Shown here: in pieces, positions 4,130 to 52,411 of the stretch
Layout of the letters: each line of letters starts with the position of its first letter
How positions within the stretch are numbered: position 1 is the first letter of the stretch
Assembly (NCBI RefSeq): GCF_000471625.1
Contig: NZ_AUSW01000030.1
Coordinates: 1-64,000, forward strand
DNA: 64,000 nucleotides
Direction of reading: 5' to 3'
Origin: Psychrobacter aquaticus CMS 56
GTDB lineage: Bacteria; Pseudomonadota; Gammaproteobacteria; Pseudomonadales; Moraxellaceae
Translations under genes and position numbers: made by a program
The notes under the pieces: model-generated
Told to the model about the DNA's origin: nothing
Databases searched by the model: none
The model's input: the letters and a program-made list of their open reading frames with translations, nothing else

Positions 4130-4145
4130 CGTCTCGTATGGTTGA

Positions 4146-4303: not shown

Positions 4304-4333
4304 ATAACACTTAGGACGTAAATTATAGCCAAC

Positions 4334-4362: not shown

Positions 4363-4388
4363 ATTAATATACCGTGCAATACTGGGTT

Positions 4389-6011: not shown

Positions 6012-6096
6012 TTAGAAGTCAATCTAAATAAATAAGATAAATAATGGACGTATTGTAGCGGATTTAGCGTAACGGTGCAGAATTAGCGCATAAAAA

Positions 6097-6127
6097 AACA
6101 CTCTCTAATCGTCCACTAGAGAGTGTT
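6097..6127 (-). terminator. Terminator of the 6144-7067 lipoprotein gene
   Basis: AACACTCTCTA pairs with TAGAGAGTGTT; on the minus strand a run of seven T follows, 17 nt after the lipoprotein gene stop. Confidence 0.85.
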
Positions 6128-6143
6128 AGTGCGCTGTATGACG

Positions 6144-7067
6144 TTAATAATAGCGTTGTATTTGCTCCGTTAAGAAGTCTCCTGCCACCTCATTGACTAT
6201 CGTACAATCCACCACACCTCGAAGACTGTTGGTATTTGGGTCCGTAGTACCGTTGGCAACATAACTGGCTTCATAAACGGCATTGGTAATGCTACTACCA
6301 TTGGTATATTCGACGCCATTGTATTGATAAGCTGGCTGATTCATGTACTCAAAAAACGTCACTTGCGCCGCTTTTTGGCTGTTTCCAATGCCAAACCCAA
6401 GTCGAGATGTTCTATAGTCTCTATTATCAGTGAAACGATTTTCGGCCGCTGCAATCCATCTCTCAAGTGACTCATTTCCTGTTTTGTCTTTTTCGTTGAA
6501 TGCTATAAATGAGCGCTCGCTTGTGACGACTGGAATATAACAGACAGAGCCTATTGGGAATTCAGCATTGGCTGGAATGTTAGGATACTTATTTAAAGCT
6601 GTGAGTATGCCTCGACTGTTGTCTATAGTGGTGCCAGCCTCATAACTGTTCGCCCGCAGTCCTGACAGGTTGAGCGTTTTATAAGTGGTTTCGTAGTTTA
6701 GTTTATTATTGCTGTTTTTTTCATAGATAGGACGTTTGACCGTGCGGCCATTGACTTCGATGTTTTTGTTTTCAAGCTGGCCTTCAAAATTATTCGCCAA
6801 TACTATTTTGTCCAAGGTATTCAAACTCTGATTGCTATAATTATTGACGATATTTTTAATGGTGATTTCGTGTTCACCTTTACGATACGTCTCATCGATA
6901 CGCGCAATCGCACTGTCGTTGGCTCGACTGTCAAAGCTTTTGTCAAAGCTGGTCAGCGTAATATTATTACTATTGCCAGAACCATAAGAACCATCCTCTT
7001 CGCCGCAACCCACCAGCGCAAAAGCCACCAAAGAAAATACACTTGGTATCACAATCAATCTATTCAT
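6144..7067 (-). CDS. Predicted lipoprotein of unknown function
   Basis: 307 residues. The N-terminus MNRLIVIPSVFSLVAFALVG followed by Cys is a type II signal with lipobox ALVGC, so the mature protein should be lipid-anchored. The rest is polar, asparagine-rich and has two cysteines (SVCYIP, VVDCTI) that could form a disulphide. I recognise no domain. Start at 7067 is preceded by TAAGGACAGT, an acceptable ribosome site. Own terminator downstream; prfC follows on the same strand beyond it. Confidence 0.8.
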   Translation of the reverse strand: MNRLIVIPSVFSLVAFALVGCGEEDGSYGSGNSNNITLTSFDKSFDSRANDSAIARIDETYRKGEHEITIKNIVNNYSNQSLNTLDKIVLANNFEGQLENKNIEVNGRTVKRPIYEKNSNNKLNYETTYKTLNLSGLRANSYEAGTTIDNSRGILTALNKYPNIPANAEFPIGSVCYIPVVTSERSFIAFNEKDKTGNESLERWIAAAENRFTDNRDYRTSRLGFGIGNSQKAAQVTFFEYMNQPAYQYNGVEYTNGSSITNAVYEASYVANGTTDPNTNSLRGVVDCTIVNEVAGDFLTEQIQRYY

Positions 7068-7362
7068 CGAACACTGTCCTTATGGTTATTAGCATCTGTT
7101 GTCATCTATTCTGATGATTGTAGTATCAGCCACTATTAATATGAGCCTTTGTTTGGTTAGTTTACCTTAATACACTTATGGTTAATACCTAAACCTAAGG
7201 GCAAATACTCATTTATAAACATAATTCTGAACACATTACTTACACATTCATAGTATATAATTACTACTGGCCTATATAGCAAATGCGGTAGTTTGTTATG
7301 CTAAGTGCCACATTAGATGGACCGCTCAACTATAAAAACTCAAAATAACTAAAGGATATTTT

Positions 7363-7776
7363 ATGAAAACACTATACTCTACTAAAGCCACTGTTACTGG
7401 TGGCCGTACAGGTTCAGTTAGCTTGAATGATAATGATCTTAGCATCAATATGGTATCACCTGGTTCTGGTAAAGAAGGTAATAATCCAGAACAGCTGTTT
7501 GCAATGGGCTACAGCGCTTGCTTTGATGGCGCACTTGGTGTAGTCAAACAGATGGAAAAAGCTAAATTTGACTCAACAACGTCAATAGAAGTCGATTTAT
7601 TGCAAAGCGAAGGGCATGATTATAAGCTAGCTGCCAAAATTCACGTGGTTGGTGAAAATACAGAGTTGTCTGCTGATGAATTTCAACAATTGGTCGAAAA
7701 AGCGCATCAAGTTTGCCCGTATTCAAAAGCCACGCGTGGCAATATCGATGTCGAAGTGACTTCAGAAGTAAAATAA
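7363..7776 (+). CDS. ohr: Organic hydroperoxide resistance protein (Ohr)
   Basis: 137-residue OsmC/Ohr-fold thiol peroxidase that reduces organic hydroperoxides. The two catalytic cysteines are visible: C53 in YSACFDGAL and C118 in HQVCPYSKATRGN, together with the N-terminal TGGRTGSV segment holding the conserved arginine and the NPEQLFA glutamate. The arrangement HQVCPYS is the Ohr signature rather than OsmC. Start at 7363 follows TAAAGGATATTTT. No ohrR regulator gene is adjacent. A terminator follows 27 nt after the stop, so it is a single-gene unit. Confidence 0.95.
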   Translation: MKTLYSTKATVTGGRTGSVSLNDNDLSINMVSPGSGKEGNNPEQLFAMGYSACFDGALGVVKQMEKAKFDSTTSIEVDLLQSEGHDYKLAAKIHVVGENTELSADEFQQLVEKAHQVCPYSKATRGNIDVEVTSEVK

Positions 7777-7803
7777 TACAACACTAATAATTACTTCAGC
7801 ATA

Positions 7804-7832
7804 AAAGAATCCAGCCAGCGCTGGGTTCTTTT
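7804..7832 (+). terminator. Terminator after ohr
   Basis: AAAGAATCCAGC pairs with GCTGGGTTCTTT (one G-T pair) and a T-run follows. Confidence 0.85.
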
Positions 7833-7945
7833 TTTATGTCTGATTCAGTATAGAACATCTCTTAACTTTTAAGCAGTTCGGCACGCACGGGTTTTATCGT
7901 TATAATAAGCGTATATTTTTATCTAATAGCTGATAAGTGACTTTT

Positions 7946-10936
7946 ATGACCGATAATATGACCGACGCCATCACAGACAACCTGAGCGACAGCAACCATA
8001 ACTCTCATCAAGCAATTGACCCTCAAGCTTTACCCAACTTTGATACTATGCCCAATGTAGCCACCATGGACACCAGTCATGTGGACAAAGACCAACCCCC
8101 TTTTATCTTGGTTGATGGCTCCTATTATCTGTTTCGCACTTATCACGCTTTGCCCAAAACCATGCAAAATTCGCAGGGATTAATCACCAATGCGATTCGT
8201 GGCACCTTGAACGCATTATTAAAGCTGATGCGTCGCTATCATCCGACCCACATGGCCGTTTGCTTTGATACCAAGTCACCGACGTTTCGACATCATATGT
8301 CTGCGGACTATAAGGCAGCTCGTCCACCCATTGATATCGAGCTGGTAGAGCAGATTCCTTACATTCATCGTTTGGTGACCGCCTTAGGTATTCCGCTATT
8401 GCGTATTGAGGGAGCGGAAGCCGATGACATCATCGGCACCCTTGCGCACCGTGCGGTTGAACAAGGCCATCACGTGGTCATTTCCACAGGCGATAAAGAC
8501 ATGATGCAGCTGGTCAACGACTGCGTCATATTGGAAGACAGCTTTACGGGTAAAATAACAGACACCCAAGCAGTGATCGACAAATTCGGCATCAATCCAA
8601 ATCAGATGATCGACTTCTTAACCTTAATGGGTGATACCTCTGACGGTATCAAAGGCGTGCCAGGTATCGGTAAAAAAACCGCAAAAGACTTGCTTGTTGA
8701 ATATGGCACTATCGACAATATGATCAAGCACATTGGCTTTATCAAAGGTCGCGGGGCAAAAGGCTTGATTGAGCATGCAGACGATATTCCGTTTAATGCA
8801 AAGCTCGCCACTATCGTCACGGATTTGGAAATCGGTCAAGACTGGAATGATTTAAAAATCAATACCGACCCGTGTGCTCATATTGATGAATTGCGCGAGC
8901 TATATACTGAGCTTGAATTTAGAAATGAGCTGGCATCACTCGACCACCCGAATCATCCAGCAAATGGATCACAAAGTGTCGCTGATAGCCAAGCCGATGC
9001 TGAGTCACAAGCACAAGTGGCGAAATACTTACAGTCGACCAAAATCACAGACACCAAAGACAGTAAAAGCCATGACAAAGCATGGCACACGGTTTTAGAT
9101 GAGCCAGCGTTTGACAGTTTAATCAAAGTATTGGAGGCGGCTCCGCATTTCGTCATCGATACCGAAACCACCAGCGTCCATTGGCGCGAGGCACAGATTG
9201 TCGGTTTGTCATTTGCCGTTCAAGCACACGAAGCTTACTATATACCGCTCACGCATAGCTTAGAAGGTGATGAGCTGACCGTCAAGCAACTCGACCGCGA
9301 CACAGTATTGGCTCGCTTAAAACCACTTTTAGAAAACCCCAATATCGGCAAGATTGGTCAGCACCTAAAATACGATGCCCACATTCTCAAACATTATGAC
9401 ATTGACCTAATCGGCGCGCTCCATGAGCGTCCGAACAACTGGGCGATGGATACCATGCTTGCCAGCTATGTGATTAACGCGGCTGTCACTCGTCACGGCA
9501 TGGATGATTTGGCACGGCATTACCTACAAACACAAACCATCAGCTTTGAAGATGTTGCGGGTAAAGGCGCAAAGCAAGTCACCTTTGATCAAGTTGCCAT
9601 CGATATTGCCAGCGACTATGCTTGCGAAGATGCCGATATCACCTATCAATTGTTTGAGGTGTTCAGTGTCGAGCTGGCTAACGATACCAATAATGCCAAA
9701 CTGCTGCATGAGCTTGAGATTCCAACGGCAGAGATACTTTGTCAAATGGAAGCGCACGGTATTCTTATCAAACGCCCATTTTTAAATGAGCTGTCAAAGC
9801 GCTTTGATGAAGAAATCATCGCCCTAGAAAAACGCGCTTATGAAGTCGCTGGCGAAGAATTTAACCTAGGCTCACCGAAGCAGCTTGGTGAGATGCTGTT
9901 TGAGAAGCTCGGCGTCGCTGGTGGCAAAAAAACCAAGTCAGGTCAATACTCAACGGGCGAAGCGGTCTTATCAAAGATTGACCATCCGCTGGTCGATATC
10001 ACCCTTGAATATCGCGGCCTCTCTAAGTTAAAAAGCACTTATACTGATGCGCTCGATAATGTTGCAGATAGCGAGACCGATCGCGTTCATACCAGCTATC
10101 ATCAAGCACTAACCAGCACTGGCCGACTGTCCTCCACTGACCCTAACTTGCAGAACATTCCGATTCGTACCGCCACGGGTCGCTTGATTCGCCAAGCCTT
10201 CATCGCGCCAGAAGGTCGCGTGATTTTAGCCGCGGATTACTCACAAATTGAATTGCGTTTGATGGCGCATTTTTCAGGCGATAAGAACTTAACGCATGCC
10301 TTTAATGAAGGGTTAGATATTCACGCTGCGACTGCCGCTGAAGTACTTGGTAAGGATGTTGCAGACGTAACTTCGACCGAGCGACGTAATGCTAAAGCCA
10401 TTAACTTTGGACTACTGTACGGTATGAGTGCCTTTGGACTTGCCAAGCAATTGCAAATGAGCCGCAGTGAAGCGCAAGACTATATCGATATGTACTTTGA
10501 GCGTTATCCCGGCGTCAAAAACTATATGATTAATACGCGTGCTAGTGCCTATGAGCAAGGCTATGTCGAGACAATATTGGGTCGCAAGCTCTACACCCCC
10601 GATATCAATCACAGCAACCGCATGGTTAAACAAGGTGCTGAACGCGCGGCGATTAACGCACCGCTACAAGGCTCAGCCGCTGATCTGATCAAACTTGCCA
10701 TGATTGCCGTCGACAAAGTATTGCCGAAAGATCAGGCAAAAATGCTCTTGCAAGTGCATGACGAATTGGTATTTGAAGTAGACGCCGATAAAGTGGATGA
10801 AATAAGCCAACTGATTACCGATGCGATGCAAGATGTTTTGACCACGACGGCTGCCCAAAAAGGCTGGCAAGTAGATTTTGCTGTGCCGTTATTGGTTGAG
10901 ACTGATAGTGGCCAAAACTGGGATGAGGCGCATTGA
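7946..10936 (+). CDS. polA: DNA polymerase I
   Basis: About 996 residues, longer than the 928 of E. coli Pol I. An extra N-terminal stretch of about 50 polar residues (TD/SN/QA-rich) precedes the usual start PPFILVDGSYYLF. Domains: 5'-3' exonuclease (about 52-340, with EADDIIG and GDTSDGIKGVPGIGKKTA), a linker, 3'-5' exonuclease with intact VIDTETTS (about 404) and DYACEDADIT, and polymerase with ADYSQIELRLMAH (about 763) and QVHDELVFEV (about 935). Both exonuclease domains look active. A GTG at 7937 gives three more residues; the ATG at 7946 is preferred because AAGTGA lies 5 nt upstream. Repairs DNA and removes RNA primers. Confidence 0.97.
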   Translation: MTDNMTDAITDNLSDSNHNSHQAIDPQALPNFDTMPNVATMDTSHVDKDQPPFILVDGSYYLFRTYHALPKTMQNSQGLITNAIRGTLNALLKLMRRYHPTHMAVCFDTKSPTFRHHMSADYKAARPPIDIELVEQIPYIHRLVTALGIPLLRIEGAEADDIIGTLAHRAVEQGHHVVISTGDKDMMQLVNDCVILEDSFTGKITDTQAVIDKFGINPNQMIDFLTLMGDTSDGIKGVPGIGKKTAKDLLVEYGTIDNMIKHIGFIKGRGAKGLIEHADDIPFNAKLATIVTDLEIGQDWNDLKINTDPCAHIDELRELYTELEFRNELASLDHPNHPANGSQSVADSQADAESQAQVAKYLQSTKITDTKDSKSHDKAWHTVLDEPAFDSLIKVLEAAPHFVIDTETTSVHWREAQIVGLSFAVQAHEAYYIPLTHSLEGDELTVKQLDRDTVLARLKPLLENPNIGKIGQHLKYDAHILKHYDIDLIGALHERPNNWAMDTMLASYVINAAVTRHGMDDLARHYLQTQTISFEDVAGKGAKQVTFDQVAIDIASDYACEDADITYQLFEVFSVELANDTNNAKLLHELEIPTAEILCQMEAHGILIKRPFLNELSKRFDEEIIALEKRAYEVAGEEFNLGSPKQLGEMLFEKLGVAGGKKTKSGQYSTGEAVLSKIDHPLVDITLEYRGLSKLKSTYTDALDNVADSETDRVHTSYHQALTSTGRLSSTDPNLQNIPIRTATGRLIRQAFIAPEGRVILAADYSQIELRLMAHFSGDKNLTHAFNEGLDIHAATAAEVLGKDVADVTSTERRNAKAINFGLLYGMSAFGLAKQLQMSRSEAQDYIDMYFERYPGVKNYMINTRASAYEQGYVETILGRKLYTPDINHSNRMVKQGAERAAINAPLQGSAADLIKLAMIAVDKVLPKDQAKMLLQVHDELVFEVDADKVDEISQLITDAMQDVLTTTAAQKGWQVDFAVPLLVETDSGQNWDEAH

Positions 10937-10964
10937 TTGCTGACCTAAATTGATATAGATGTAA

Positions 10965-11024
10965 ATTGGGCGGATTATTTTAACTTCTCATAGAGTATAA
11001 AGATAAAACAAATCTGCCCATTTT
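10965..11024 (+). terminator. Probable terminator after polA
   Basis: TTGGGCGGATT and AAATCTGCCCA are near-complementary arms around a long AT-rich loop, followed by TTTTT. The loop is unusually long, so this is less sure than others. Confidence 0.5.
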
Positions 11025-11167
11025 TAAACTGTATTGCCCATATTAACAATCACTTGTGACCGGTTAGATAAATTAACTAAACACATCATAGTAAAATTGG
11101 CGTTATAATAGCCGATTATTAAACTGTGTGTGGTTGGGCTGTACGTGGTTAGATAGTATCGATCTAC

Positions 11168-11192
11168 AGTGAGCCTTAGCGCTCACTTTTTT
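11168..11192 (+). terminator. Hairpin with T-run directly before a coding region
   Basis: AGTGAGC pairs perfectly with GCTCACT around a 6-nt loop, followed by a run of T. It sits only about 15 nt before the ribosome site of the next gene, so it is either the end of an upstream transcript or an attenuator in that gene's leader. Confidence 0.65.
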
Positions 11193-11757
11193 GTTTTGCA
11201 AAAACGAGGAGTTTCTCATTCTGATTTCAGAGGGAATCACAGAAATCCCCAGCATGCTGATTTTGTTCGCCTGTCTGCTCCGTTGCGGGCAGTATTCACT
11301 TCAAAACCCCACCAAACACGTGCGTGCCTTTTGGTTAGCAGCTGTACTGGTGTTTTTTACTGTGATACGCCGAGAATTGAACTACCTACCCGATCTTTTT
11401 GTTCCCAGTGATTTTATGTTGCTCAGCCATTCATATGACTGGTGGGAAGACGCTGTTCTGACGGTTGTTTACTTACTGATTGTTGGCTTGTTGGCTTATT
11501 CTCGACATTACCTGTGGGCAGTATTAAACAAAGTACCTGTGTCTCTATATTTGACTGTGGCTGCATTGGCCTTATTGCAGTATATGGGTGAGAACGTGAT
11601 TGTTTTTCCAGAGGCGCTCGGCGTCATCGTCGAAGAGCTGGTAGAAACTGCTGTTTATGGTATTGCCTTGGTGTATTTATGGCGATTTAATCTGAGCGAT
11701 TGTGAATCCTATTTGTTGCATGAACTAAATTATGAATGTAGCCACTCCACTCATTAA
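11191..11757 (+). CDS. Small multispanning membrane protein, start uncertain
   Basis: Up to 188 residues. Four or five hydrophobic segments are visible (LILFACLLRCG, FWLAAVLVFFTVI, AVLTVVYLLIVGLLAY, LYLTVAALALLQYM, TAVYGIALVYLW) with acidic loop motifs DWWED and EELVET. I do not recognise a named family. The frame is open from a TTG at 11191 with no ribosome site before it. The only good site, GAGGAG (11206-11211), lies inside the frame; in-frame ATT at 11218 and CTG at 11221 sit 6 and 9 nt after it. The first ATG is at 11254. A non-AUG start at 11218/11221 is therefore plausible. Preceded by a terminator-like hairpin. Confidence 0.75.
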   Translation: MFCKNEEFLILISEGITEIPSMLILFACLLRCGQYSLQNPTKHVRAFWLAAVLVFFTVIRRELNYLPDLFVPSDFMLLSHSYDWWEDAVLTVVYLLIVGLLAYSRHYLWAVLNKVPVSLYLTVAALALLQYMGENVIVFPEALGVIVEELVETAVYGIALVYLWRFNLSDCESYLLHELNYECSHSTH

Positions 11758-11920
11758 AACCACCATAATAATAATCATGATTTAATGAATAGCTATATTG
11801 CTATTACATTGTTTGAACATGCTGTGACACCTTATCACTATTAGTAGCAATCATAACGCGTCACACTAGCCTTGATAAATAAAATCAATAATCTTTATAC
11901 ATAATAATAAGGAAACCATT

Positions 11921-12271
11921 ATGGACAATTCAAAAACCCCATTACCAGAAGAGATGGATCATATCGATAGCAACAGTCGTAGCAGTGATGACAGCATCGA
12001 GAACCAAGACAACCAGTTACTCGATTTAGACAATCCTATGTTACATACCATTGATAATAACGATGTGATTGATAATAGCGCAGGATTTGATAACTCAGAA
12101 GTCGGTACAGATGCGACTCAAGGCTTGACGCCTATGCATCGCCAAAATATTGATGAATCGCGGGTCGATGAAGTACTGGTGCAAGACAACCTCGATGACA
12201 GTAATTATCCCGATATTTTGGATATTGCAGACAGAGAAGCGGCAGAACGTAGTAACGATGATGATTTTTAA
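11921..12271 (+). CDS. Very acidic small hypothetical protein
   Basis: 116 residues with 24 Asp and 8 Glu, many Asn and Ser and almost no aromatic residues; likely intrinsically disordered and soluble. No signal peptide or membrane segment. I recognise no family. It is supported as a gene by a good ribosome site (AAGGAAACC) before the ATG, a clean terminator 22 nt after the stop and a composition far from random AT-rich sequence. Repeated ID/DN patterns (TIDNND, VIDNSAG, FDNSE) suggest a low-complexity origin. Function unknown. Confidence 0.75.
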   Translation: MDNSKTPLPEEMDHIDSNSRSSDDSIENQDNQLLDLDNPMLHTIDNNDVIDNSAGFDNSEVGTDATQGLTPMHRQNIDESRVDEVLVQDNLDDSNYPDILDIADREAAERSNDDDF

Positions 12272-12292
12272 CCAAGCTCTCTTACAACAAAG

Positions 12293-12324
12293 AAGCACGC
12301 CCGTTATATCGAGCGTGCTTTTTT
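12293..12324 (+). terminator. Terminator after the acidic protein gene
   Basis: AAGCACGC (12293-12300) pairs with GCGTGCTT (12313-12320), then a T-run. Confidence 0.85.
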
Positions 12325-12369
12325 ATTGCGAGAGAACGCTTCTAATACGAGAGTCTGTTAAGCAACCAA

Positions 12370-13185
12370 CTATACCCCTGACAATGGCTGATCCGTCCAA
12401 ACATCTCGGTAACTGGTGTAGTAAGTAATCATACCTATTGGAAACAGTGCTAAAAGACCTAGTCCTAGTGTAAAAACTACCATCAATATCATTATTATAG
12501 GAGCAATCAACCAAAAAACTAAAAATGGTAAGATGTTTTTTAAACACACTTTAAAACTCATTTTCATTGCCTGAACAGGCTCAATGTTGTGAAGCACAAT
12601 TAAGGCAGGTGCAAACCAGATAGCCATAAGTACAGGAAATAATAATATAAAAAGTAGTAAAGAACCCAATACTATACCTACGATAGCAACGTCACTTGAC
12701 TCCTGACCTAACGATAAAGCCATACCGCCGAATATAATCAGCATAGGTATCATTACAACAATAATAGCCACTAAATACAATATGAACAAAATAATTAATG
12801 GTTTGAGATGCGTATAAAAGGCTGAAAAAAGATGATCAAACTTCAGCTCGCTGCCTACAACTTGAACGGCGCAGCCTTTTATTATTCCACCAACAAAAAC
12901 AAAAGAAAGAAAAGGGAAAATGAAATTTATCACGGGTATGCTACTGCCAATTATAGCAATAATTAAATAAGCAACCCCTATAGCTAACCATAATAAAAAT
13001 TGATCTTTAAATATTACAAATGCTTTGGTAATCCAACTTATGCCCCATCCTGCTTGGCACATTCGAGGTTCTGCCAATAACTGCGGCAATAGGCCACCAT
13101 ACTCGTCAGTTGGCGGTAAATTCGGTGGTCGGCTGTTAGGTTTTTGTAGAGACACAGAGGGTTGTGAATCGTTAAAGCTGGACAT
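12370..13185 (-). CDS. BPSS1780-like polytopic membrane protein
   Basis: About 271 residues. A proline-rich cytoplasmic N-terminus (to about residue 40) is followed by CQAGWGISWITKAFVIFKDQ and six hydrophobic segments. This layout and the segments GGIIKGCAVQVVG and EPVQAMKMSFKVCLKNILPF match the BPSS1780/DUF2189-like family of membrane proteins, whose biochemical role is not known. Start at 13185 (MSSFND) is chosen over a TTG four codons upstream; the ribosome site is weak. It is convergent with the acidic protein gene and followed upstream by the hemH terminator region. Confidence 0.85.
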   Translation of the reverse strand: MSSFNDSQPSVSLQKPNSRPPNLPPTDEYGGLLPQLLAEPRMCQAGWGISWITKAFVIFKDQFLLWLAIGVAYLIIAIIGSSIPVINFIFPFLSFVFVGGIIKGCAVQVVGSELKFDHLFSAFYTHLKPLIILFILYLVAIIVVMIPMLIIFGGMALSLGQESSDVAIVGIVLGSLLLFILLFPVLMAIWFAPALIVLHNIEPVQAMKMSFKVCLKNILPFLVFWLIAPIIMILMVVFTLGLGLLALFPIGMITYYTSYRDVWTDQPLSGV

Positions 13186-41291: not shown

Positions 41292-41322
41292 AAAAAAGCG
41301 ACACAGAGTGTGTCGCTTTTTT
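41292..41322. terminator. Terminator at the end of the CheX-CheY-kinase operon
   Basis: AAAAAAGCGACACA pairs with TGTGTCGCTTTTTT around GAG; on the minus strand 51 nt after the last cheX-like gene. Confidence 0.93.
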
Positions 41323-41373: not shown

Positions 41374-41823
41374 TTAAGCAATACAAATCCCTATCACTGC
41401 TTTATAACCACGCCATGTAAATGGCGTGATATAGCTTTGACGATCTTTGGGCAAATAAGACACGTTTGGCGCACCTTCAACGATATGAGGAGGAGAGATA
41501 ATAAACTCCGAGCCAAACTCAGTACGAGCGTTACCAGAAATAGTGTTGGCCATTTCGCCCAGCAAGTCTTTCATCATTGTGATTGAGGAGTCAGGCTCTT
41601 TCATCACCTTTATTATTTCTCGCAGCATCACACTAGGGGCACTCACATATACACAGCCTACAAGCGGACCTGATATCTTGATAACACCACTAAAATCATA
41701 ACCAATAGCACTTTTGTTATGGTTCAGATAAGGGGTATCAATAGCCACTTCCGAGCTATCAATCTGTACAAAAAATGCGTTAATCGAACTGAGAAACACA
41801 CCCAATTTTTCTACTTTAAACAT
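41374..41823 (-). CDS. CheX-type phosphatase, second copy in operon
   Basis: 149 residues. A CheX/FliY-like phosphatase fold: the conserved ExxN pair is E90 and N93 in GEMANTISGNARTEF, which in known CheX proteins attacks the phosphoaspartate of CheY. The N-terminal part VEKLGVFLSSINAFFVQID and the closing strands ITPFTWRGYKAVIGICI match the family. It is about as long as, and clearly homologous to, the neighbouring gene product at 41862-42311 but diverged, so an old duplication. Last gene of the operon; terminator follows. Probable role: dephosphorylate the CheY-like protein encoded upstream. Confidence 0.88.
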   Translation of the reverse strand: MFKVEKLGVFLSSINAFFVQIDSSEVAIDTPYLNHNKSAIGYDFSGVIKISGPLVGCVYVSAPSVMLREIIKVMKEPDSSITMMKDLLGEMANTISGNARTEFGSEFIISPPHIVEGAPNVSYLPKDRQSYITPFTWRGYKAVIGICIA

Positions 41824-41861
41824 AGTATATTAATATCCATCTGTATTACGTGGCAGCAGCA

Positions 41862-42311
41862 TTAATCCTGCAAACAAACCACAATCTCGCCAATCTGCGA
41901 GTGCCAAGTGATGGGAATGATAAAAGAACGCTCGTCGTTTGGTAATACAATACTTTGCGGAGCGCCTTTGAAGACGAAGGGCACAGAAATATGAAACTCT
42001 GGACCAAATTCTTTACGCGCATTGCCCGAGATTGTATTGGCAACTTCACCAGCCAAATCTATATAGTTTTCATCGCTTTTATCGGTTTCACCCATGCTAT
42101 CTAATATAGAAGACAGTAACTGACGTGTTGCCGAAAAATACACCACACCTTTTTGTTCACCAGATATACCAATCACACCTGTATAGTCATGGACTTTTGG
42201 CTGCTTGTTCTCTAATAAGTATGGCGTATCAGCGACGAGCTCTTCTCCCCCAAACTGATTAAAATAGTTACTAATAATGCTTAAAAAAATCTGTAGTTTT
42301 TGTTCTTTCAT
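41862..42311 (-). CDS. CheX-type phosphatase, first copy in operon
   Basis: 149 residues, same fold as its downstream neighbour. The catalytic pair is E89 and N92 in GEVANTISGNARKEFGPEF. The N-terminus LQIFLSIISNYFNQFGGEE and VADTPYLLENKQPKVHDYTG align with the paralogue. It is 30 nt downstream of the cheY-like gene and 38 nt upstream of the second cheX-like gene. Two phosphatases for one receiver are unusual; they could act as a heterodimer or on two targets. Confidence 0.88.
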   Translation of the reverse strand: MKEQKLQIFLSIISNYFNQFGGEELVADTPYLLENKQPKVHDYTGVIGISGEQKGVVYFSATRQLLSSILDSMGETDKSDENYIDLAGEVANTISGNARKEFGPEFHISVPFVFKGAPQSIVLPNDERSFIIPITWHSQIGEIVVCLQD

Positions 42312-42341
42312 AGTGACATCTACTTAAGTCGTTGAATGGTA

Positions 42342-42704
42342 TTAGTCTTGCATCAGCTCATACAAAGACTCTACAAGCTCCTCTTCTGAAAAAGGCTTAC
42401 ACAAAAATCCGCTGGCGCCCAACGACAACGCTTCAATACCAGTGGCTTTATCAGACAAAGCTGATACCACTAAAATACGTACATTAGGGTCAATCGCTAT
42501 GATTTTTTCAATGCACTCAAGGCCATCCATTTGTGGCATGGTCAAGTCCATCGTAATCACATCAGGACGATGCACATTAAACTTTTCGATGGCTTGAACG
42601 CCACTGGTAGCCGTAGCAACCAGCATAAATTTCCCTGAATCGTACGCGCGCTGAATACGATTTCTAATAATATTTGAATCATCAACAATCATTAACTTAT
42701 ACAT
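42342..42704 (-). CDS. Stand-alone CheY-like response regulator
   Basis: 120 residues, only a receiver domain. The acidic pocket D8-D9 (LMIVDDSNIIRNRI), the phosphoacceptor D53 (DVITMDLTMPQMDG), S81 (ILVVSALSD) and K103 (GFLCKPFSEEEL) are all present, so it should be phosphorylated. There is no output domain. It lies between the kinase gene (60 nt) and the first cheX-like gene (30 nt) in the same operon. It probably acts by binding a partner, as CheY does, but the partner is not encoded here. Confidence 0.93.
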   Translation of the reverse strand: MYKLMIVDDSNIIRNRIQRAYDSGKFMLVATATSGVQAIEKFNVHRPDVITMDLTMPQMDGLECIEKIIAIDPNVRILVVSALSDKATGIEALSLGASGFLCKPFSEEELVESLYELMQD

Positions 42705-42764
42705 AACTTATATTACCTTTAATAAAGTGCTTGTCGTCCTTGACAACGTACCTATGGTTTCCAA

Positions 42765-44969
42765 TTAAGCTTTCGGTAAAGTAATGACAAACCGCGTCAT
42801 CTGCCCCAGCTCACTGTTTACATTAAGCGTGCCATTATACTCTTCTACTTGCGCTTTGATGATATCAAGACCAACGCCGCGGCCGCCATCTTCGTCTGCA
42901 TGCTCTTTAGTAGAAAAACCTGAAGAAAACAGTTGTTCAAGTAAGTCATTCTGACTGAGCTGATTTGCTGCTTCAGTACTAAAACGACCGGATGTGCTCA
43001 GTTTAGCACGAATACTTTCGTAGTCGATGCCTTGACCATCATCTTGTACAGTCAGTATGATACTTGAACCGTTATCTTGCACTTCCAAATCAATCGTTCC
43101 TACGGCATTTTTTCCAGTAGCATAACGGACACTTGGTTTTTCGATACCATGTACTACAGCATTACGTAATAGCTGAATACTAATCTCTTTGATCGGCTTT
43201 TCCAGCTGTGCTGGTATGGCCATTTGCGTTAGCGTATCGCTTTTTAGCTGTACTTGCTTACCTTGTCTAGCAGCGATATCTTTTGCAAACGCTTGGTAGA
43301 AAGACAATCGATCATCATCTGCTTCACTATCAATGTTCATGTTATCGACTAAAGAGTTTGATGGCACACCCTCAGTCACAACAGCTTTTGACACACGGCT
43401 TTTGACAATACTTTCATCCAACCCAGCTGATGTTTGAGTGGTAGCAGGTTTGGCGCTCATTGGTGCTGAGCGGTTGATGCGTTCACCCAAGGTTGCAATG
43501 GTATTTGAGAGATTTAATAAGTCATCTAAATGTACTGCTAATTGCAAGAAATCATTGCCCGATAGCTGACCTTGATTTTGTAGCGCGTGCAGTTTGTCTT
43601 CTGCATCTGAAGCAATCTTAGTAAAGCTGTGCAGTTTTAACGCAGACGCCTCACCTTTCAAACTGTGCATTTCGCGATAAATAGCTTTTAGCTTGGCTTC
43701 AAGCTCATATTGTGAGCTACCAGGGTTTTTCAAGATATTGTTCATTTTCTCGATATGCTTCTGAGTATTGTCAATGAACTCATTGATAATCTTCGGATTT
43801 ACATTCAAGATGGTTGTTAGCATCTCAATCTGCATATCATTTTGCGAACGCTCTTTTTCTAAACGCTGCTCTAGATAAACGGCATCTGACACATCGTTGA
43901 CGTTGACTAGAATACGAGCAATGTCTTTATCTTCATAGACTCGTGAAAACTTAAAGTCTAAAAAGCGACTGCTAGAGTCCCCTCCTCTAGTAGCACCGTG
44001 CAACATAACTTTGTTTAGAGGATTCAAAGAGTCGACCAGTTTTTCTTTCACGCGCGGATTATATAGCTGATCAATAAACTGCTGTGTGGTTACCAGATCT
44101 TTATCAGAAATACGACCACGTAAGACATTGGTAAAGTTCTCCCCTGCCAATCTGTCCTCACCGATAATATCATTCAGTGCTCGAGAATGCTGCTGACCAA
44201 TATTTAAGTCTTTATCAAGCAAGAATAGACCCGTATTTACCGTTTGCATAATTTCTTGTGTTTCGCGACGAGCGGCAAGCGCCTCTGCATCCGTCTCACG
44301 CAAACGACGTACAAAGAAGAATACGAAGATCAAAAAGTACGCAAAGATAGCGGCAACACCAAGTACCTGAATCAGGCGGATGGTATTTGCTTGGCGTTCA
44401 GCGTCAAGGAAAACCTCGTTAGTCAAATCTTCTAACGACTCGTTCATGAGCAAACTGGATGTTTTTGCCTGTTCAACGGCCTGAAACAACTCATCTGAGG
44501 AGTCAACCGTCACGTTATCAGCATCTTTTAGGTAGCTTTGAATTCTAGGCTCTAAAAGTTGCCACTGTTCATTCGCGGCTTGAACACTCTCTTGTGCACT
44601 ACCACTAACCTTGGGTAGCTTATAAGTTTGACCATCCAATTCTTTAGTGACCGTACCACCCTGCTCAATGGCTACAATAGATTCACTGATGAGGGCAGTA
44701 TTTTCTTCTAGACGACTCAGTACTCGCTGAATATGTGGAGAGCTGGTGTCTTCACCATAGCTGCTGTCTAGGTCGAATAAGTCTTTAATTACCGCTTGCG
44801 CGCTGTTTGCTACTTGGTTGGTTTGATCGATCAATACTGTATTTCTTTCTAACAAACTTGATGTATAGAAAGTAAATGCAAGTAGAGCACCAATCAAAGA
44901 TAAGAATAGCGCAATTGAAATAATCAAGCCGCGATAGCGTTTGTTATCTACATTACTGGTGGTTGCCAT
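42765..44969 (-). CDS. Membrane-bound CheA-like histidine kinase without CheW domain
   Basis: 734 residues. Membrane segments at about 14-36 and 200-221 enclose a periplasmic domain of about 160 residues that is mostly helical. A PAS-like region (about 235-360) follows, a coiled coil, then an HPt-like domain with the phosphohistidine in EMHSLKGEASAL (H435), as in CheA P1. The ATPase part has the N box IQLLRNAVVHGIEKPSVR (N603), the G1 box DDGQGIDYESI and DGGRGVGLDIIKAQVEE. The P4-like ATPase is the last domain; no CheW-like P5 domain follows, so it cannot dock CheW in the usual way. Starts 13 nt after the solute-binding gene. Confidence 0.9.
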   Translation of the reverse strand: MATTSNVDNKRYRGLIISIALFLSLIGALLAFTFYTSSLLERNTVLIDQTNQVANSAQAVIKDLFDLDSSYGEDTSSPHIQRVLSRLEENTALISESIVAIEQGGTVTKELDGQTYKLPKVSGSAQESVQAANEQWQLLEPRIQSYLKDADNVTVDSSDELFQAVEQAKTSSLLMNESLEDLTNEVFLDAERQANTIRLIQVLGVAAIFAYFLIFVFFFVRRLRETDAEALAARRETQEIMQTVNTGLFLLDKDLNIGQQHSRALNDIIGEDRLAGENFTNVLRGRISDKDLVTTQQFIDQLYNPRVKEKLVDSLNPLNKVMLHGATRGGDSSSRFLDFKFSRVYEDKDIARILVNVNDVSDAVYLEQRLEKERSQNDMQIEMLTTILNVNPKIINEFIDNTQKHIEKMNNILKNPGSSQYELEAKLKAIYREMHSLKGEASALKLHSFTKIASDAEDKLHALQNQGQLSGNDFLQLAVHLDDLLNLSNTIATLGERINRSAPMSAKPATTQTSAGLDESIVKSRVSKAVVTEGVPSNSLVDNMNIDSEADDDRLSFYQAFAKDIAARQGKQVQLKSDTLTQMAIPAQLEKPIKEISIQLLRNAVVHGIEKPSVRYATGKNAVGTIDLEVQDNGSSIILTVQDDGQGIDYESIRAKLSTSGRFSTEAANQLSQNDLLEQLFSSGFSTKEHADEDGGRGVGLDIIKAQVEEYNGTLNVNSELGQMTRFVITLPKA

Positions 44970-44982
44970 CTTTTATAGCCTC

Positions 44983-45861
44983 TTAGTTCAATTGCTTAGT
45001 ATTAGTATCAGCAGCGCTCGTATCAACAGATGTGTTTTCACCCAACCAGCGCTTTTCAATTTCTTCAAATGTGCCTTTTGCTTTGAGCTTAGTAATACCC
45101 TCATTCACTTGATTGATAAGTGTATTATTGCCTTTCGCCATTAATATGACTTGCTGCGCAGATGGATTGTCCTCGCCCTCGTAAGGAACGATAGTAACGT
45201 TATATTCTGGATGGTTTTTTGCCGTGTATTGCAAGATAGGCAAATCATGCAATATGGCGTCTACCTTGCCTTGGACGAGATCTTCATACAATAAAAAGGG
45301 GGTAGTTTTGGTGGTCAAACTATTATAACTGCCCATCAGTTCAGCTTGATCTTCTTGCTTTGAACCTTCCATTGCAGAGATATTCTTGCCTTGCAAATCT
45401 TCTAAGCTATTGATATTCAAATCATCTTTAACATACATGATGGCTGCTGGGTTAAAAAAGTAGGGGGTTGATAAGCCGTATTTTTCAGCACGATCGTCTT
45501 TGTAAGAAATACCTGCAATAGCCAAATCTCGGCTACCCGATTCCACACTATCAAACAGATTCTGCCAAGTTTCTTTATAGAACTCGACTTTGAAGCCTTG
45601 TTCTTCACCAATAGCACGAATGGAGTCAACATCAATACCCTGCATGTTGCCATAATCATCTTGGAACGAAAACGGTGGCGTCGTACCTGTTGTCGCCACT
45701 TTTAAAGTTGGCGCAGTAGCAGGCAATTTACTGACAAAGCTGTCTTTATTTTCTGTAGCTGGTGTGCTCGTTGCGTTAGCATTTTCTTGAGTGGAAGAGT
45801 TACCGCAGCCAAATAGGCCCACACTCAATACCATTGGTAACACTCGATATAACTGCATCAT
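44983..45861 (-). CDS. Solute-binding lipoprotein (family 3) dedicated to sensing
   Basis: 292 residues. N-terminus MMQLYRVLPMVLSVGLFGCG gives a lipobox (LFGC), so the protein is lipid-anchored on the periplasmic side. The mature part is a family 3 periplasmic binding protein: TTGTTPPFSFQDDYGNMQGI, DVDSIRAIGEEQGFKVEFY, DLAIAGISYKDDRAEKYGL and GKVDAILHDLPILQY. Such proteins bind polar amino acids or similar small ligands. No ABC permease or ATPase gene is near; instead it is the first gene of an operon with a membrane kinase, 13 nt apart. AGGTAG precedes the ATG. Ligand unknown. Confidence 0.92.
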   Translation of the reverse strand: MMQLYRVLPMVLSVGLFGCGNSSTQENANATSTPATENKDSFVSKLPATAPTLKVATTGTTPPFSFQDDYGNMQGIDVDSIRAIGEEQGFKVEFYKETWQNLFDSVESGSRDLAIAGISYKDDRAEKYGLSTPYFFNPAAIMYVKDDLNINSLEDLQGKNISAMEGSKQEDQAELMGSYNSLTTKTTPFLLYEDLVQGKVDAILHDLPILQYTAKNHPEYNVTIVPYEGEDNPSAQQVILMAKGNNTLINQVNEGITKLKAKGTFEEIEKRWLGENTSVDTSAADTNTKQLN

Positions 45862-45963: not shown

Positions 45964-45992
45964 ATAATACTTATCTAATTTAACTATTGCAA
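45964..45992 (-). promoter_or_regulatory. Promoter of the signalling operon
   Basis: On the minus strand TTGCAA (45987-45992), a 17-nt spacer and TATTAT (45964-45969). It lies about 100 nt before the solute-binding gene and is the only strong promoter seen for the five-gene operon. Confidence 0.65.
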
Positions 45993-46121: not shown

Positions 46122-47381
46122 TTATTCAGCATCATCAAGGTTTAAATTACGGTCTATTTGCCAGATTAAAAAAGACCCAAGGCCCATCAGGGCAAACATA
46201 GCAATACCAATTTTGAGTACTGGATTGACCGGAAATAGATTTAACAACAAGCCACCGAATATACCGACCGAAAACATGAGCGAACCTTGCAGCGCACTTG
46301 CCATACCCGCACGGCGTTTTTGAAAAGCGAGCGCAATGGCAGAGGCATTCGGCTGAGTCAGACCCAAACCTGCAATACAAAAGAAAATACAGGCAAGCAC
46401 CAAGGGTAGCCAAGCATCAGTCCCCAAAAATAAACCTATAAAAAACAACACGCCTGCAGAAATAACCTGCATCATCGCACCAAAGCGTAGAATACTTAAA
46501 ATACGAAAACGATTGGTAAGCCATTGGTTCAGCTGGGTCAAACCCACAAAGCCTGCAGCATTCATTCCAAACAGCCAGCCAAAGTGTGTTGCTGATACGC
46601 CATAAGTGTCCATAATCAACTCAGAGGCTGAGCTGATATAAACAAACATCGCGCCCATCAGCAAACCGCCCCCAATCGCTGGATAATTAAAAGTGGGATC
46701 TTTTAATAGCTCCCAATACTGGCTTAAAACTTCTTTGGCAGGACGCACATTACGATTTTCTTCCGTCAATGTTTCAAAAAAGAAAAACTTAGTGAGCAAC
46801 AAATTAAGCGTACCAAAGGCTGCCAAAAACCAAAAAATCGAATGCCAGCTAAAAAATTGTAAAAATACCGCACCAAGCGAGGGGGCCAATATAGGCGCTA
46901 AACCCATGACCAAAATCATAATAGAAAAGGCTTTGGCCGTTTGTTTGGCAGTCAGACGATCACGAATCGCAGCTCGAGTCACCACTGCCCCCACACACGC
47001 GCCAAGTGCTTGCATAGTACGCCCGACAAATAAGACATACTCATTATTGGTGGTGGCACAAATGATGGAAGCGATAACATAGAGCGTCATACCGATATAC
47101 AAAGGCTTCACTCGACCAACGCGATCACTAAATGGCCCATAAAATAGCTGACCAAATACCAAGCCCAAAAAGTACGCTGGCACAGAGTTGGCCATAAACG
47201 CAGTTGATACTCCAAAATCATCTGCCATGGATGGCAACGCTGGCAGATACATATCGATAGACAATGGCCCAACTGCCACAATAAGCCCAAGCATCATAAT
47301 CCATGCAACAGGCAAATCGGCCGAGCGCACTCGTTCAGAAGCGATGGGTTTATTGGGTAGGGAAGATTTTGGAGCAGACAT
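46122..47381 (-). CDS. Bcr/CflA family drug exporter
   Basis: 419 residues, about twelve membrane segments, MFS fold. The Bcr/CflA branch is indicated by DMYLPALPSMADDFGVS in the first loop, FGQLFYGPFSDRVGRVKPLY (MFS motif A) and LVMGLAPILAPSLGAVFLQF. Such pumps export chloramphenicol, bicyclomycin or similar compounds; the substrate cannot be told from sequence. The last residues form an acidic tail. Start at 47381. Upstream of it lies a small mobile-element remnant, downstream a terminator. Confidence 0.92.
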   Translation of the reverse strand: MSAPKSSLPNKPIASERVRSADLPVAWIMMLGLIVAVGPLSIDMYLPALPSMADDFGVSTAFMANSVPAYFLGLVFGQLFYGPFSDRVGRVKPLYIGMTLYVIASIICATTNNEYVLFVGRTMQALGACVGAVVTRAAIRDRLTAKQTAKAFSIMILVMGLAPILAPSLGAVFLQFFSWHSIFWFLAAFGTLNLLLTKFFFFETLTEENRNVRPAKEVLSQYWELLKDPTFNYPAIGGGLLMGAMFVYISSASELIMDTYGVSATHFGWLFGMNAAGFVGLTQLNQWLTNRFRILSILRFGAMMQVISAGVLFFIGLFLGTDAWLPLVLACIFFCIAGLGLTQPNASAIALAFQKRRAGMASALQGSLMFSVGIFGGLLLNLFPVNPVLKIGIAMFALMGLGSFLIWQIDRNLNLDDAE

Positions 47382-48949: not shown

Positions 48950-51900
48950 TTATATCATTTTCCAAGTCATATCATTTTCACTTAAGCGGTGATAATTGAG
49001 CTGAGGATAGAATGACAAATCTAGCGTTTGTAAATTATTTAACGCGATTAACAATGAGTCATAGTAAGGTTCAAGCATCGCAAACTGTGCCGGTGTGGTG
49101 TGCTGGACATTCAACAAGCATTTGTCTTCTAAATCTTGGCTGGCTTGACGTAATTGCGGCACACCAGTGTAACGACTGCCGCCCAATATACGATGGGCAA
49201 TTTGTGCCAGCATATGACGATCGCGTGTTTCCCACGCTTGCGTCAATGCCTGTTTTTCATTATCAATGGTATCAAGCATCATAATGATGAGTTTGGCTGC
49301 CAGATCTGGTTTGTTCGCAGAGCGAGTAAGTGCGTCTTGCCAATCTAAAATATCTAGAGTATTAATATAACTAACACTTAAATGATTGCGGCTAAGATGG
49401 GTTGCGCCGCTTGCGTCTGTTGTCACCTCATCATGAGAGCTGTCCACGGAGTTTTTAGGCGGATGCAATGATGACGACGACCCTTGTTTTTGCAAGCGTA
49501 TACTCTCATAGCGCGGCTGAGTATTGCGCGGCGTTTCTCGTCTATAGTCCTCACGAGGCTGGCTATCGCGCAAGTAATCATCCCGAATTTTTTTCAATGA
49601 TAAAGGTCGAGTGATCTTTGGCTGGTTGGTTATATCAGAGGCACTGGTGTGATTACTCTCATGATTTTTAACCATAGGATAAGCAATGACGGTAGAGTCT
49701 GAAGGCCAAGTTGAATAGTTTTCAGCATCGCTATTTTGCAATACCGTGGCTTGTAAATCGTTCAAGTCAATCGCTTGCGGATCAACGCTATGTAGAGTGG
49801 TGTCAGGCAACGCCAACTGTGCCGTGGTCGTTGTGCGTCCAAGCCATTTTTGCAGCACTTGCAATAACTGAGGCTGGCTGATGGGCTTACCCACATAGTC
49901 ATTGATACCGCTTGCGATAAGCTTGTCACGCTCGTCAGCCAAACCATGCGCGGTCAAAGCAATGATAGGTATGCGGCTGTCATCATTCTCAATGTTGCGG
50001 ATTTGGCGCGCCGCTTCATGACCTGACATACGTGGCATTTGAATATCCATAAATATTAAATCAATATTGTTTTTATCCTGAGCCGCGCCTTTGTCATCCA
50101 CACTCGCCTCTTCATAAAGCGTGCTATTTGCTTTTTTACTGACCTCATCACGGGTTTCAGCTTTAGAGAGTTGGGTTTTATTTGAGAGACTTTGTTTGTC
50201 GTTTTTAGTAGTTTTGATATTTTTGGTTTGTTGTTTGCTGATGATCTCTATGGCATCAAAACCACTACTCGCTGTAATCACCTGAATACCAAGCTCGCTC
50301 AGCAACGCATCAAGCACCAGTAGGTTGGGCAGATGATCATCCACTGCCAGCACAGTCACCCCTTTCCAACGGGGTTCTTGCATGCTCTTTGGAACGCTGC
50401 GACTTTGTGTATCCAGCATGGCATAGAGCTGCCTTTTGTCTAGTGGCTCATACAGTATATTGGCGTGATAACGATTCAATAGTGCTTGATCGGCGGCCAC
50501 TTGATAGCCAAATACCGCAAGTTTGCCTTGATAATGGAGACGAATCTGTTTGAGTAGCGCCATCATATCGTCTTGCGTATCATCGTCAACGATGACCCAA
50601 TCCCAATAGTTGCCATGCTCTTTTAGTGACTCAAGCACTCCAGGCAGTGAATTGGCTTGGGTCAGTTTAATCGGTAAATACTGTAGGCTGGCTTTGAGCA
50701 CTTGGATAGACGCGGTATGATTGATCCATACCAAAACATTGAATTCGTCGGTAGCACTCGCTAGTGGCGCTAACACTGGCAGCTCAATGGTTTGACCAGT
50801 AGCGGCTTCTAACACATCAACATGCGCTGGCATACGAAACCAAAAAGTCGCGCCTTGATTGGCAATGTTTTCTTGAGCATTGTCATGAAAACCAATATCG
50901 CCGCCCATTAGCCGAGTCAATTGCTTGGAGATGACCAGACCCAATCCCGTACCACCGTATTGGCGAGTGATTGAGGGATCGCCTTGGCTAAAGCTTTGAA
51001 AAAGCATCTTTTGATCGGCCAAAGATATCCCTTTGCCGCTGTCCTGTACACTAATCATCAAGTAGTTGTCACGGTGATCGTCCAAGCTGACGCGCACTAC
51101 TACATCGCCACTATCAGTAAACTTAATCGCATTACCGACGATATTGGTTAATACTTGCTTGAGGCGCAGGGCATCACCATTGATACGCATCGGTACGTCA
51201 TTATAAAACAGTACTGCCATACGCAGACCTTTCTCTGCGGACACAGGTGAGAGCATATCAACCACATCATAAATGGTGTCATAAAGATCAAATTCATGGC
51301 GATCAAGTACCAGTTTACCCGCTTCAATCTTAGAAAAATCCAAAACATCATTAACGAGTGCCAATAAGTGTGCCGAGGATTTGCGTATGGTTTGCACATA
51401 CAAATCTTGTTCAGGATTCAATTCACCATGACGTGCCAGCAAATTAATAAAGCCATCGATACTGTTCAGAGGAGTGCGCAGCTCATGGCTAATATTGGCC
51501 AAAAACGCCGATTTGGCCTGACTGGTGGAGATAGCTGCATCACGCGCATTACGGATAGAGATGTTTTGCATTTCCATCTCATCAAAAGCAAGGCGCAAAT
51601 CATCTTCTGTTTGTTCGGCATGATCTTTTAATTCTTGAAAACTTCTGTGCAACCGGCGCAACGTTTTGACCAAGTCCTGCTGCAATAAATTCAGTTCACC
51701 ATCCGACTCAACGGGAATGGGGTGATACAGATTGTCGACATGGGTGCGTTGCAGCTGCAAACGTAGCTCATAAATTGGGGCTATCCAACGTTTTGAATAA
51801 ATATTCAAGCTCAGCAATAAAATCAAAATAGTGAACAAACCCGTGATCACTAGCGCCATAGCAATCCGATAACGCGCAATGTACAGTGGCTCGTTGTCCA

Positions 51901-52411
51901 TGTCCACTAACAACCACATTCTTTGGCCTTTAAACTCTCCTAACACACTGCCATAAGCCGTACCAATAGGGGTTGGTCTTTGCGATAAGAATTTTTCTTG
52001 TAGCCCTATCAAAGGCCAAGCTTCATCCCGTCCATAGCCTACGGCGGCAAGTACTTGATTGCTCTCGTTAATAATAGCAATGCGCTGTACATGCTGCTCG
52101 GACTGCATGCGATTCAGCTTATCTTGGATACCCTTGAGCTGAGCTCCTTCTGTTTTCGATGTGTCATTTGCACTAACATCAACGTCATTACGTGCTTGCT
52201 CTAACAGCTCAGGAATCAGCTCAGCAATTGCTGGCGTATAACGAATCAGCACCGCTTCGGCCAGTACCTCTTGCTCTGAATTGCTAGCACGCATGGTTTC
52301 GTAAAAAACCAAAATACCACCGACCGCCGCCAACACACAAATGGGCAAAAACACCAATATAATGAGCTGACCATATGCACTACTGGTATCAAAACGTTTT
52401 TTGTGTGCCAT
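48950..52411 (-). CDS. gacS: GacS/BarA-type hybrid sensor histidine kinase
   Basis: 1153 residues. Membrane segments at about 15-37 and 182-201 flank a periplasmic sensor part; a HAMP-like region and coiled coil follow. HisKA: FLANISHELRTPLNSIDGF (H309); ATPase with NIVGNAIKFTDSGD and GTGLGLVISKQ. A degenerate receiver (about 560-660, VIVDDDTQDDM) is followed by an active receiver (DIQMP, D789) with an inserted charged stretch, then a C-terminal HPt AHRILGGSRYTG (H1073). This order H-(D)-D-Hpt is that of GacS/BarA, which phosphorylates GacA/UvrY to induce small RNAs that sequester CsrA. cysM lies next to gacS in pseudomonads too, supporting the call. No gacA in the window. Confidence 0.93.
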   Translation of the reverse strand: MAHKKRFDTSSAYGQLIILVFLPICVLAAVGGILVFYETMRASNSEQEVLAEAVLIRYTPAIAELIPELLEQARNDVDVSANDTSKTEGAQLKGIQDKLNRMQSEQHVQRIAIINESNQVLAAVGYGRDEAWPLIGLQEKFLSQRPTPIGTAYGSVLGEFKGQRMWLLVDMDNEPLYIARYRIAMALVITGLFTILILLLSLNIYSKRWIAPIYELRLQLQRTHVDNLYHPIPVESDGELNLLQQDLVKTLRRLHRSFQELKDHAEQTEDDLRLAFDEMEMQNISIRNARDAAISTSQAKSAFLANISHELRTPLNSIDGFINLLARHGELNPEQDLYVQTIRKSSAHLLALVNDVLDFSKIEAGKLVLDRHEFDLYDTIYDVVDMLSPVSAEKGLRMAVLFYNDVPMRINGDALRLKQVLTNIVGNAIKFTDSGDVVVRVSLDDHRDNYLMISVQDSGKGISLADQKMLFQSFSQGDPSITRQYGGTGLGLVISKQLTRLMGGDIGFHDNAQENIANQGATFWFRMPAHVDVLEAATGQTIELPVLAPLASATDEFNVLVWINHTASIQVLKASLQYLPIKLTQANSLPGVLESLKEHGNYWDWVIVDDDTQDDMMALLKQIRLHYQGKLAVFGYQVAADQALLNRYHANILYEPLDKRQLYAMLDTQSRSVPKSMQEPRWKGVTVLAVDDHLPNLLVLDALLSELGIQVITASSGFDAIEIISKQQTKNIKTTKNDKQSLSNKTQLSKAETRDEVSKKANSTLYEEASVDDKGAAQDKNNIDLIFMDIQMPRMSGHEAARQIRNIENDDSRIPIIALTAHGLADERDKLIASGINDYVGKPISQPQLLQVLQKWLGRTTTTAQLALPDTTLHSVDPQAIDLNDLQATVLQNSDAENYSTWPSDSTVIAYPMVKNHESNHTSASDITNQPKITRPLSLKKIRDDYLRDSQPREDYRRETPRNTQPRYESIRLQKQGSSSSLHPPKNSVDSSHDEVTTDASGATHLSRNHLSVSYINTLDILDWQDALTRSANKPDLAAKLIIMMLDTIDNEKQALTQAWETRDRHMLAQIAHRILGGSRYTGVPQLRQASQDLEDKCLLNVQHTTPAQFAMLEPYYDSLLIALNNLQTLDLSFYPQLNYHRLSENDMTWKMI

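Follow-up and report, generated by a model that had tools for sequence, protein, structure and literature searches.

A solute-binding lipoprotein (SBP), a membrane kinase with HPt and CheA-type domains, a CheY and two CheX proteins are encoded, in this order, by five minus-strand ORFs at 41374..45861 of a 64,000-nucleotide stretch of Psychrobacter aquaticus CMS 56 DNA (the window), separated by 13, 60, 30, and 38 nt. What does a binding protein do beside chemotaxis-type signaling proteins, and do these genes form one conserved system? A preliminary description, made from the DNA alone, had read them as a receptor-less chemosensory operon. Its ORFs, coordinates, strand, and gaps were all correct, and Pfam bore out its domains (SBP_bac_3, Hpt and HATPase_c, Response_reg, and CheX twice). 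The term "receptor-less" holds in that no MCP is encoded in the operon, nor CheW, CheR, or CheB (ORF list and Pfam), but the kinase itself is the predicted receptor.

Table 1. Features of the operon and its flanks, in window positions
Feature	Position	Strand	Details
SBP lipoprotein, family 3, orphan	44983..45861	-	292 aa; Pfam SBP_bac_3 3.5e-35
Membrane kinase, HPt + CheA-type ATPase	42765..44969	-	734 aa
Periplasmic sensor domain, predicted four-helix bundle	44367..44873	-	Kinase residues 33-201; model pLDDT 85.7
PAS-like fold (predicted)	43893..44231	-	Kinase residues 247-359; AlphaFold2 strand pattern
HPt helical bundle, H435	43467..43796	-	Kinase residues 392-501; Pfam Hpt, AlphaFold2 model
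CheA-type ATPase domain	42768..43316	-	Kinase residues 552-734; phmmer, Foldseek
CheY-type receiver, stand-alone	42342..42704	-	120 aa, D53; Pfam Response_reg 1.5e-28
CheX1	41862..42311	-	Pfam CheX; E89/N92
CheX2	41374..41823	-	Pfam CheX; E89/N92; 47% identical to CheX1
Exchangeable input cassette, mature SBP to just before TM2	44397..45711	-	From L133/L101 break points; approximate
Terminator-like hairpin, intrinsic	41292..41322	-	14-bp stem
Sigma-70-like promoter match, weak	45964..45992	-	9/12 positions match

Architecture of the operon and its kinase

The kinase shares 87% identity with a protein of Psychrobacter vallis and has TM helices at residues 14 to 32 and 202 to 220. Pfam finds Hpt (3.9e-08, residues 394 to 484) and HATPase_c (3.8e-17), and the ATPase domain matches CheA P4 by phmmer (2.1e-29) and Foldseek (1i58, 5.8e-12); the two-TM, HPt-like, CheA-like kinase described beforehand is there. 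The phosphoacceptor H435 lies within HSLKGEA, and this histidine is kept in 179 of the 180 kinase relatives gathered (overlapping collections). The AlphaFold2 model (51-row alignment, pLDDT 83.9, pTM 0.52) adds a coil at residues 361 to 389, a disordered linker at 504 to 549, and an ATPase domain that closes the chain. Between TM2 and the HPt domain it predicts a PAS-like fold, absent from the preliminary description and without a Pfam match, and the solved folds nearest to the model of the periplasmic domain are chemoreceptor LBDs.

No CheW-like (P5) domain was found by Pfam, as had been claimed, and there is no HisKA match, Hpt being present instead. Pfam also gives no match to H-kinase_dim (P3), a domain often missed by HMMER (PMC10542144, as far as its available text goes), and residues 504 to 549 are disordered in the model. 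We considered whether the protein is simply a CheA and rejected this, because it combines the lack of CheW with a sensor of its own (two TM helices, periplasmic bundle, PAS-like fold); in the available text of a CheA survey, four core domains, CheW among them, occur in 100% of CheA proteins, and CheA is described as having no sensor domain of its own (PMC10542144).

The lipobox, R124, and D206 of the SBP are each kept in 98/98 relatives gathered (overlapping collections). We take the two residues to be the amino-acid site, and the ligand is probably an amino acid. The claim that ABC transporter partners are lacking agrees with a motif test, which covers ATPases rather than permeases and detects the ABC-ATPase at a transporter locus: it found no ABC-ATPase-like ORF in the 64-kb window. 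Seven loci carry two tandem SBPs. As to the downstream proteins, the phosphoacceptor of CheY and the two ExxN pairs of CheX, both claimed to be intact, are present and nearly invariant, with D53 in 162/162 relatives and E89 and N92 in 271/271 and 269/271, respectively (relatives gathered in overlapping collections). Pfam scores for the two CheX proteins are 8.3e-21 and 6.7e-19. The closest solved chain to CheY is that of Thermotoga maritima CheY (8.3e-26), followed at about 1e-12 by chains that are presumably enterobacterial CheY, and CheY is 32% identical to the PilG-like and 26% to the PilH-like protein of its own genome.

An MFS gene (46122-47381) lies upstream of the operon, and downstream are two genes that we take to be rpsB and tsf; their homologs are the next genes at seven of the 13 kinase loci examined. 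The terminator proposed for the operon is strong, in a window with nine terminator-like sites versus 4.4 ± 2.0 in shuffled sequences. The proposed promoter is a weak match to the sigma-70 pattern, and such sites are no more common in the window than chance would give (11 found, 12.7 expected). Also near the operon, at 48950-52411, is a hybrid sensor kinase, presumably BarA/GacS-like, that contains a receiver and an HPt domain; it accounts for one of the genome's eight HPt matches.

The reading that we lean towards is that the orphan SBP signals through the kinase to CheY, countered by CheX, and that the pathway acts on type IV pili. The predicted four-helix periplasmic domain would be the docking site of the lipoprotein, whose cargo is likely an amino acid; when ligand bound, the lipoprotein would alter this bundle, and the change would be relayed to the interior by TM2, the PAS-like fold, and the coil. 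The ATPase domain, on its flexible linker of about 46 residues, could then reach H435 of the membrane-side HPt domain, from which phosphate would move to D53 of CheY. The two CheX proteins likely dephosphorylate CheY and would thereby set the decay time. CheY-P might act on the pilus machinery beside Pil-Chp, which is the least certain step.

Distribution of the core and its candidate output

Pfam CheX was found in 56 genomes of the 149 sampled from the host family (own included); among 105 Psychrobacter genomes, 82 carry the kinase. In a sample of the class, the kinase aligned over sensor, HPt, and ATPase in 11 of 368 genomes besides its own, counting kinases in one or two pieces and excluding the ATPase-only matches expected of ordinary CheA; this may be an undercount, since a maximum of three candidates per genome was scored. 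A scan of named genomes gave at least 389 relatives, of which 80 loci were retained; going by record titles, 33 are from Moraxellaceae (some overlapping with genomes in our other sets) and 47 from other groups. Among the matches listed, the latter include Burkholderiaceae, Thiobacillus, Sulfuriferula, Neisseriaceae, Steroidobacter, and Spongiibacter, together with one Acidobacteria and one Spirochaetales MAG.

The partnership of CheY and CheX with the kinase is conserved, as had been proposed: among the matches listed, the kinase is followed by both in 69/80 loci (40/47 non-Moraxellaceae, 29/33 Moraxellaceae) and by an adjacent CheY in 78, nine of these having CheY alone. Of the two loci where neither follows, one lies at a contig end and the other has CheY-CheX upstream of its kinase. 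Within L062-L077, kinase, CheY, and CheX come in this order in 13 of 16 loci. The second CheX is found in Moraxellaceae, although several Moraxella loci have a single CheX, and at one distant locus (L075). The SBP behaves differently. Among the matches listed it was found only in Moraxellaceae, none of the 47 other loci having a same-family SBP upstream of the kinase (within 3 kb, some contigs being shorter), and it is absent beside 9 of the 77 Psychrobacter operons typed below. The five genes therefore do not stand as a conserved set, and a check of their co-occurrence across genomes divides them: kinase, CheY, and CheX are co-conserved, but the SBP is limited to Moraxellaceae among these matches. 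Judged by gene neighborhoods, the conserved unit is kinase-CheY-CheX, shared across mostly beta- and gammaproteobacteria, because CheY and CheX follow the kinase widely.

Several loci depart from the common layout. In L260, from Spirochaetales, CheY-CheX lies upstream of a 909-aa kinase relative, reversing the gene order, and kinase-CheY units without CheX downstream occur in Moraxella and Neisseriaceae (L240, L244, L247, L256, L236, L237, L243, and L257). L075 carries two tandem kinase-CheY-CheX units (3846-12431), the upstream one with two CheX, each unit being followed by a protein of about 300 aa without a Pfam match. In L078 (genome G203) the kinase is interrupted by about 1.9 kb containing a 435-aa opposite-strand ORF, and the SBP is split as well, with CheY and both CheX still present. 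Genome G194 has a second kinase-CheY copy of equal score on three contigs (L077 and L180 on C8 and C19, the third on C32), which may be a repeat or an assembly artefact.

An output other than flagella had been suggested for this system, and the host genome indeed has no match to FliM. It has a pilG-pilH-pilI-pilJ-pilK-chpA-like cluster, whose genes we named by their presumed order, and both of its CheW matches fall within this cluster. CheW was present in 24/24 carriers searched (own included), 23 of them with a CheW ORF of more than 1,000 aa, and FliM in six. In Psychrobacter, CheW occurs in 82/82 kinase carriers and is missing in 4 of the 105 genomes, all among the 23 kinase-less ones (Fisher 0.0019, kinship uncorrected). 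A ChpA-like match was found in 11/11 distant carriers versus 215/369 class sample genomes, the weaker matches among the 215 possibly being other CheA (0.0023; 0.013 when the eight families count once). Considering this last pattern and the lack of a FliM match in the host genome, type IV pili are the likely output, the link being one of co-occurrence among carriers that include related genomes.

The same input and phosphate chemistry could instead end in CheY-P binding to exopolysaccharide, c-di-GMP, or envelope machinery, a possibility that we regard as rather unlikely given the CheW and ChpA-like matches of the carriers. In its favor, the operon contains no target gene, and 19 of the 23 kinase-less Psychrobacter retain CheW, which means that Pil-Chp can do without the system. 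Furthermore, a fusion of a receiver with a Ser/Thr protein kinase domain comes directly after CheX in one distant locus (L066:9113-10357), and Myxococcus has a CheY-like exopolysaccharide regulator, EpsW, according to the part of the account available.

Matching classes of binding protein and sensor domain

The 82 Psychrobacter carriers yielded 77 operons (window included) that could be typed by the kinase periplasmic domain; those with broken or cut kinases (G080, G203, G174, G182) were omitted, as was L153, in which most of the sensor domain is missing at a contig end. Domain A occurs with SBP-A in 60 operons, B with SBP-B in seven, and C without SBP in eight, so that SBP class and periplasmic class match in 75/77. 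The two mismatches are L147, with domain A and a third SBP class, and L149, with domain A and no adjacent SBP. Across 68 SBP-kinase pairs with an SBP longer than 270 aa (65 from Psychrobacter), SBP distance correlated with periplasmic distance (r 0.917; 0.891 given cytoplasmic distance; 0/2000 permutations as high) and did not track cytoplasmic distance in the same pairs (partial -0.06). Among operon pairs more than 80% identical cytoplasmically, SBP and sensor both agree in 679, both differ in 144, and one alone in none (agreement cut-offs of 55% and 60% identity for SBP/sensor; pairs not independent). A quick tree built from the cytoplasmic parts implies at least 10 changes of type, and well supported branches force at least seven changes between type A and the rest. 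In seven independent pairs, SBP and sensor shift in the same direction in 6.5 on average and never in opposite directions (sign test, median p 0.016).

Single operons reveal where the replacement begins and ends. L133 (type B) and L101 (type A) have kinase cytoplasmic parts 99.8% identical, and their DNA is mostly 92 to 100% identical in the MFS gene and again from the kinase cytoplasmic half through CheY and both CheX to the gene that follows. Identity is 80 to 93% in bins that separate the MFS gene from the start of the SBP, and 21 to 71% (100-nt bins) from about SBP residue 51 to about kinase residue 191, just before TM2; in the window SBP, the Pfam domain begins at residue 53. The pair L137/L097 has similar break points, with the upstream one slightly earlier. 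Of the type C pairs, L150/L130 diverges from the MFS gene end to TM2 and is 80 to 100% identical thereafter, and L148/L123 is 92 to 100% identical in the cytoplasmic half and mostly 70 to 90% in CheY/CheX and the MFS gene. These alignments indicate that SBP and kinase outer half are swapped together between near-identical operons, the kinase cytoplasmic half remaining nearly unchanged, as do CheY and CheX in the clearest swapped pairs. The near-identical stretches, where recombination is easy, sit outside the cassette.

Since the SBP and the sensor domain are adjacent, linkage could move them jointly; we therefore examined unlinked SBPs. Seven genomes have a type A sensor but lack an adjacent SBP; in six of them, an SBP 37 to 47% identical to that of the window is encoded elsewhere (best E 2.7e-48 or better); four of the six belong to one genus, and the G056 kinase, in two ORFs, was typed by eye. 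In the seventh, G050, no near SBP was found, the best E being 2.6e-31. Near SBPs were found in 0/8 type C genomes, 0/3 kinase-less Psychrobacter, and 0/3 Moraxellaceae with other sensors, where matches had E values of 6.8e-26 or weaker, or there were none. No ABC-ATPase motif was found in 20 regions around unlinked SBP matches, one being a second kinase locus. Because cassette swap and unlinked SBPs point the same way, the SBP is likely the input of the kinase, and one kinase may serve several SBPs. The input from the binding protein to the periplasmic domain, proposed at the outset, gains support from class match, coordinated replacement, and SBPs elsewhere in the genome.

It is improbable, in our view, that the SBP is a bystander, a scavenging lipoprotein carried by linkage next to a four-helix domain that senses its ligand directly. 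Neighboring genes do recombine jointly, type C kinases and the 47 non-Moraxellaceae loci among the matches listed have no upstream SBP, and solved domains of the same fold are given with directly bound ligands. Nevertheless, same-family SBPs lie elsewhere in six of the seven type A genomes that lack an adjacent one and in none of the eight type C genomes, there is no ABC-ATPase motif nearby, and SBP-kinase precedents exist in the literature available in part.

Relation to known signaling systems

Named three-component systems usually have a DHp-type (HisKA) kinase and a gene regulator as output. Like them, the operon encodes its kinase alongside an SBP that matches the sensor domain; unlike them, it has an HPt domain with a CheA-type ATPase, a stand-alone CheY, and CheX. 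Examples in the available portions of two sources are CuaD-CuaS-CuaR, with SBP, kinase, and regulator (PMC10384115), and XylFII-LytS, TorT-TorS, and LuxP-LuxQ (PMC6321045). Another parallel is GlnH-GlnX-PknG of Corynebacterium, in which, as far as the text available describes it, a family 3 amino-acid-binding lipoprotein signals to a membrane protein for which extracellular four-helix bundles are predicted (PMC9769921). The operon shares with it the family 3 lipoprotein and the (here predicted) four-helix membrane partner, but the Corynebacterium pathway, in that same text, has no histidine kinase, CheY, or CheX.

CheA-CheY-CheX chemotaxis modules are known from Thermotoga and Borrelia. The P1/P4-type parts, the T. 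maritima-type CheY, and CheX with ExxN resemble these modules, from which the operon differs in lacking a CheW domain, MCP, CheR, and CheB and in having a kinase with a membrane sensor. It also differs from Pil-Chp, since its components are separate genes and ChpA has CheW and several HPt domains. SBP-mediated input is named for PilJ only as a possibility in the text available (PMC12632253). Our literature search found no account of a system of SBP, HPt kinase, CheY, and CheX. What is new, as far as predicted proteins and operon comparisons go, is the joining of a three-component SBP-kinase input to a chemotaxis-type CheY/CheX output, with a cassette that is naturally exchanged.

If true, beta- and gammaproteobacteria would have a widespread switch in the style of chemotaxis that works without chemoreceptor arrays and whose input can be deduced from swaps that occur in nature. 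The boundaries of these swaps would provide ready-made chimeras for studying the action of an SBP on a four-helix sensor, and with paired SBP/sensor classes the search for ligands would be direct. Were the pilus the output, a nutrient input to surface motility would be added beside Pil-Chp. More tentatively, the HPt kinase, CheY, and CheX could be a plug-in port that steers type IV pili in parallel to Pil-Chp, its input re-aimed by cassette recombination or by scattered orphan SBPs.

That CheY and CheX are merely a phosphate sink or cross-talk node for ChpA, with no separate output branch, is very improbable: the carriers do have CheW throughout (24/24 searched and 82/82 Psychrobacter), but CheY follows its own kinase in nearly all loci among the matches listed, and no other protein of the operon is as strongly conserved. 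Within the genus, median identity to the window proteins (70 to 74 proteins each) is 70.1% for the SBP, 77.9% for the kinase, 89.9% for CheX2, 94.0% for CheX1, and 96.7% for CheY, a rise from SBP to CheY as expected if the input evolves fast and the output is fixed.
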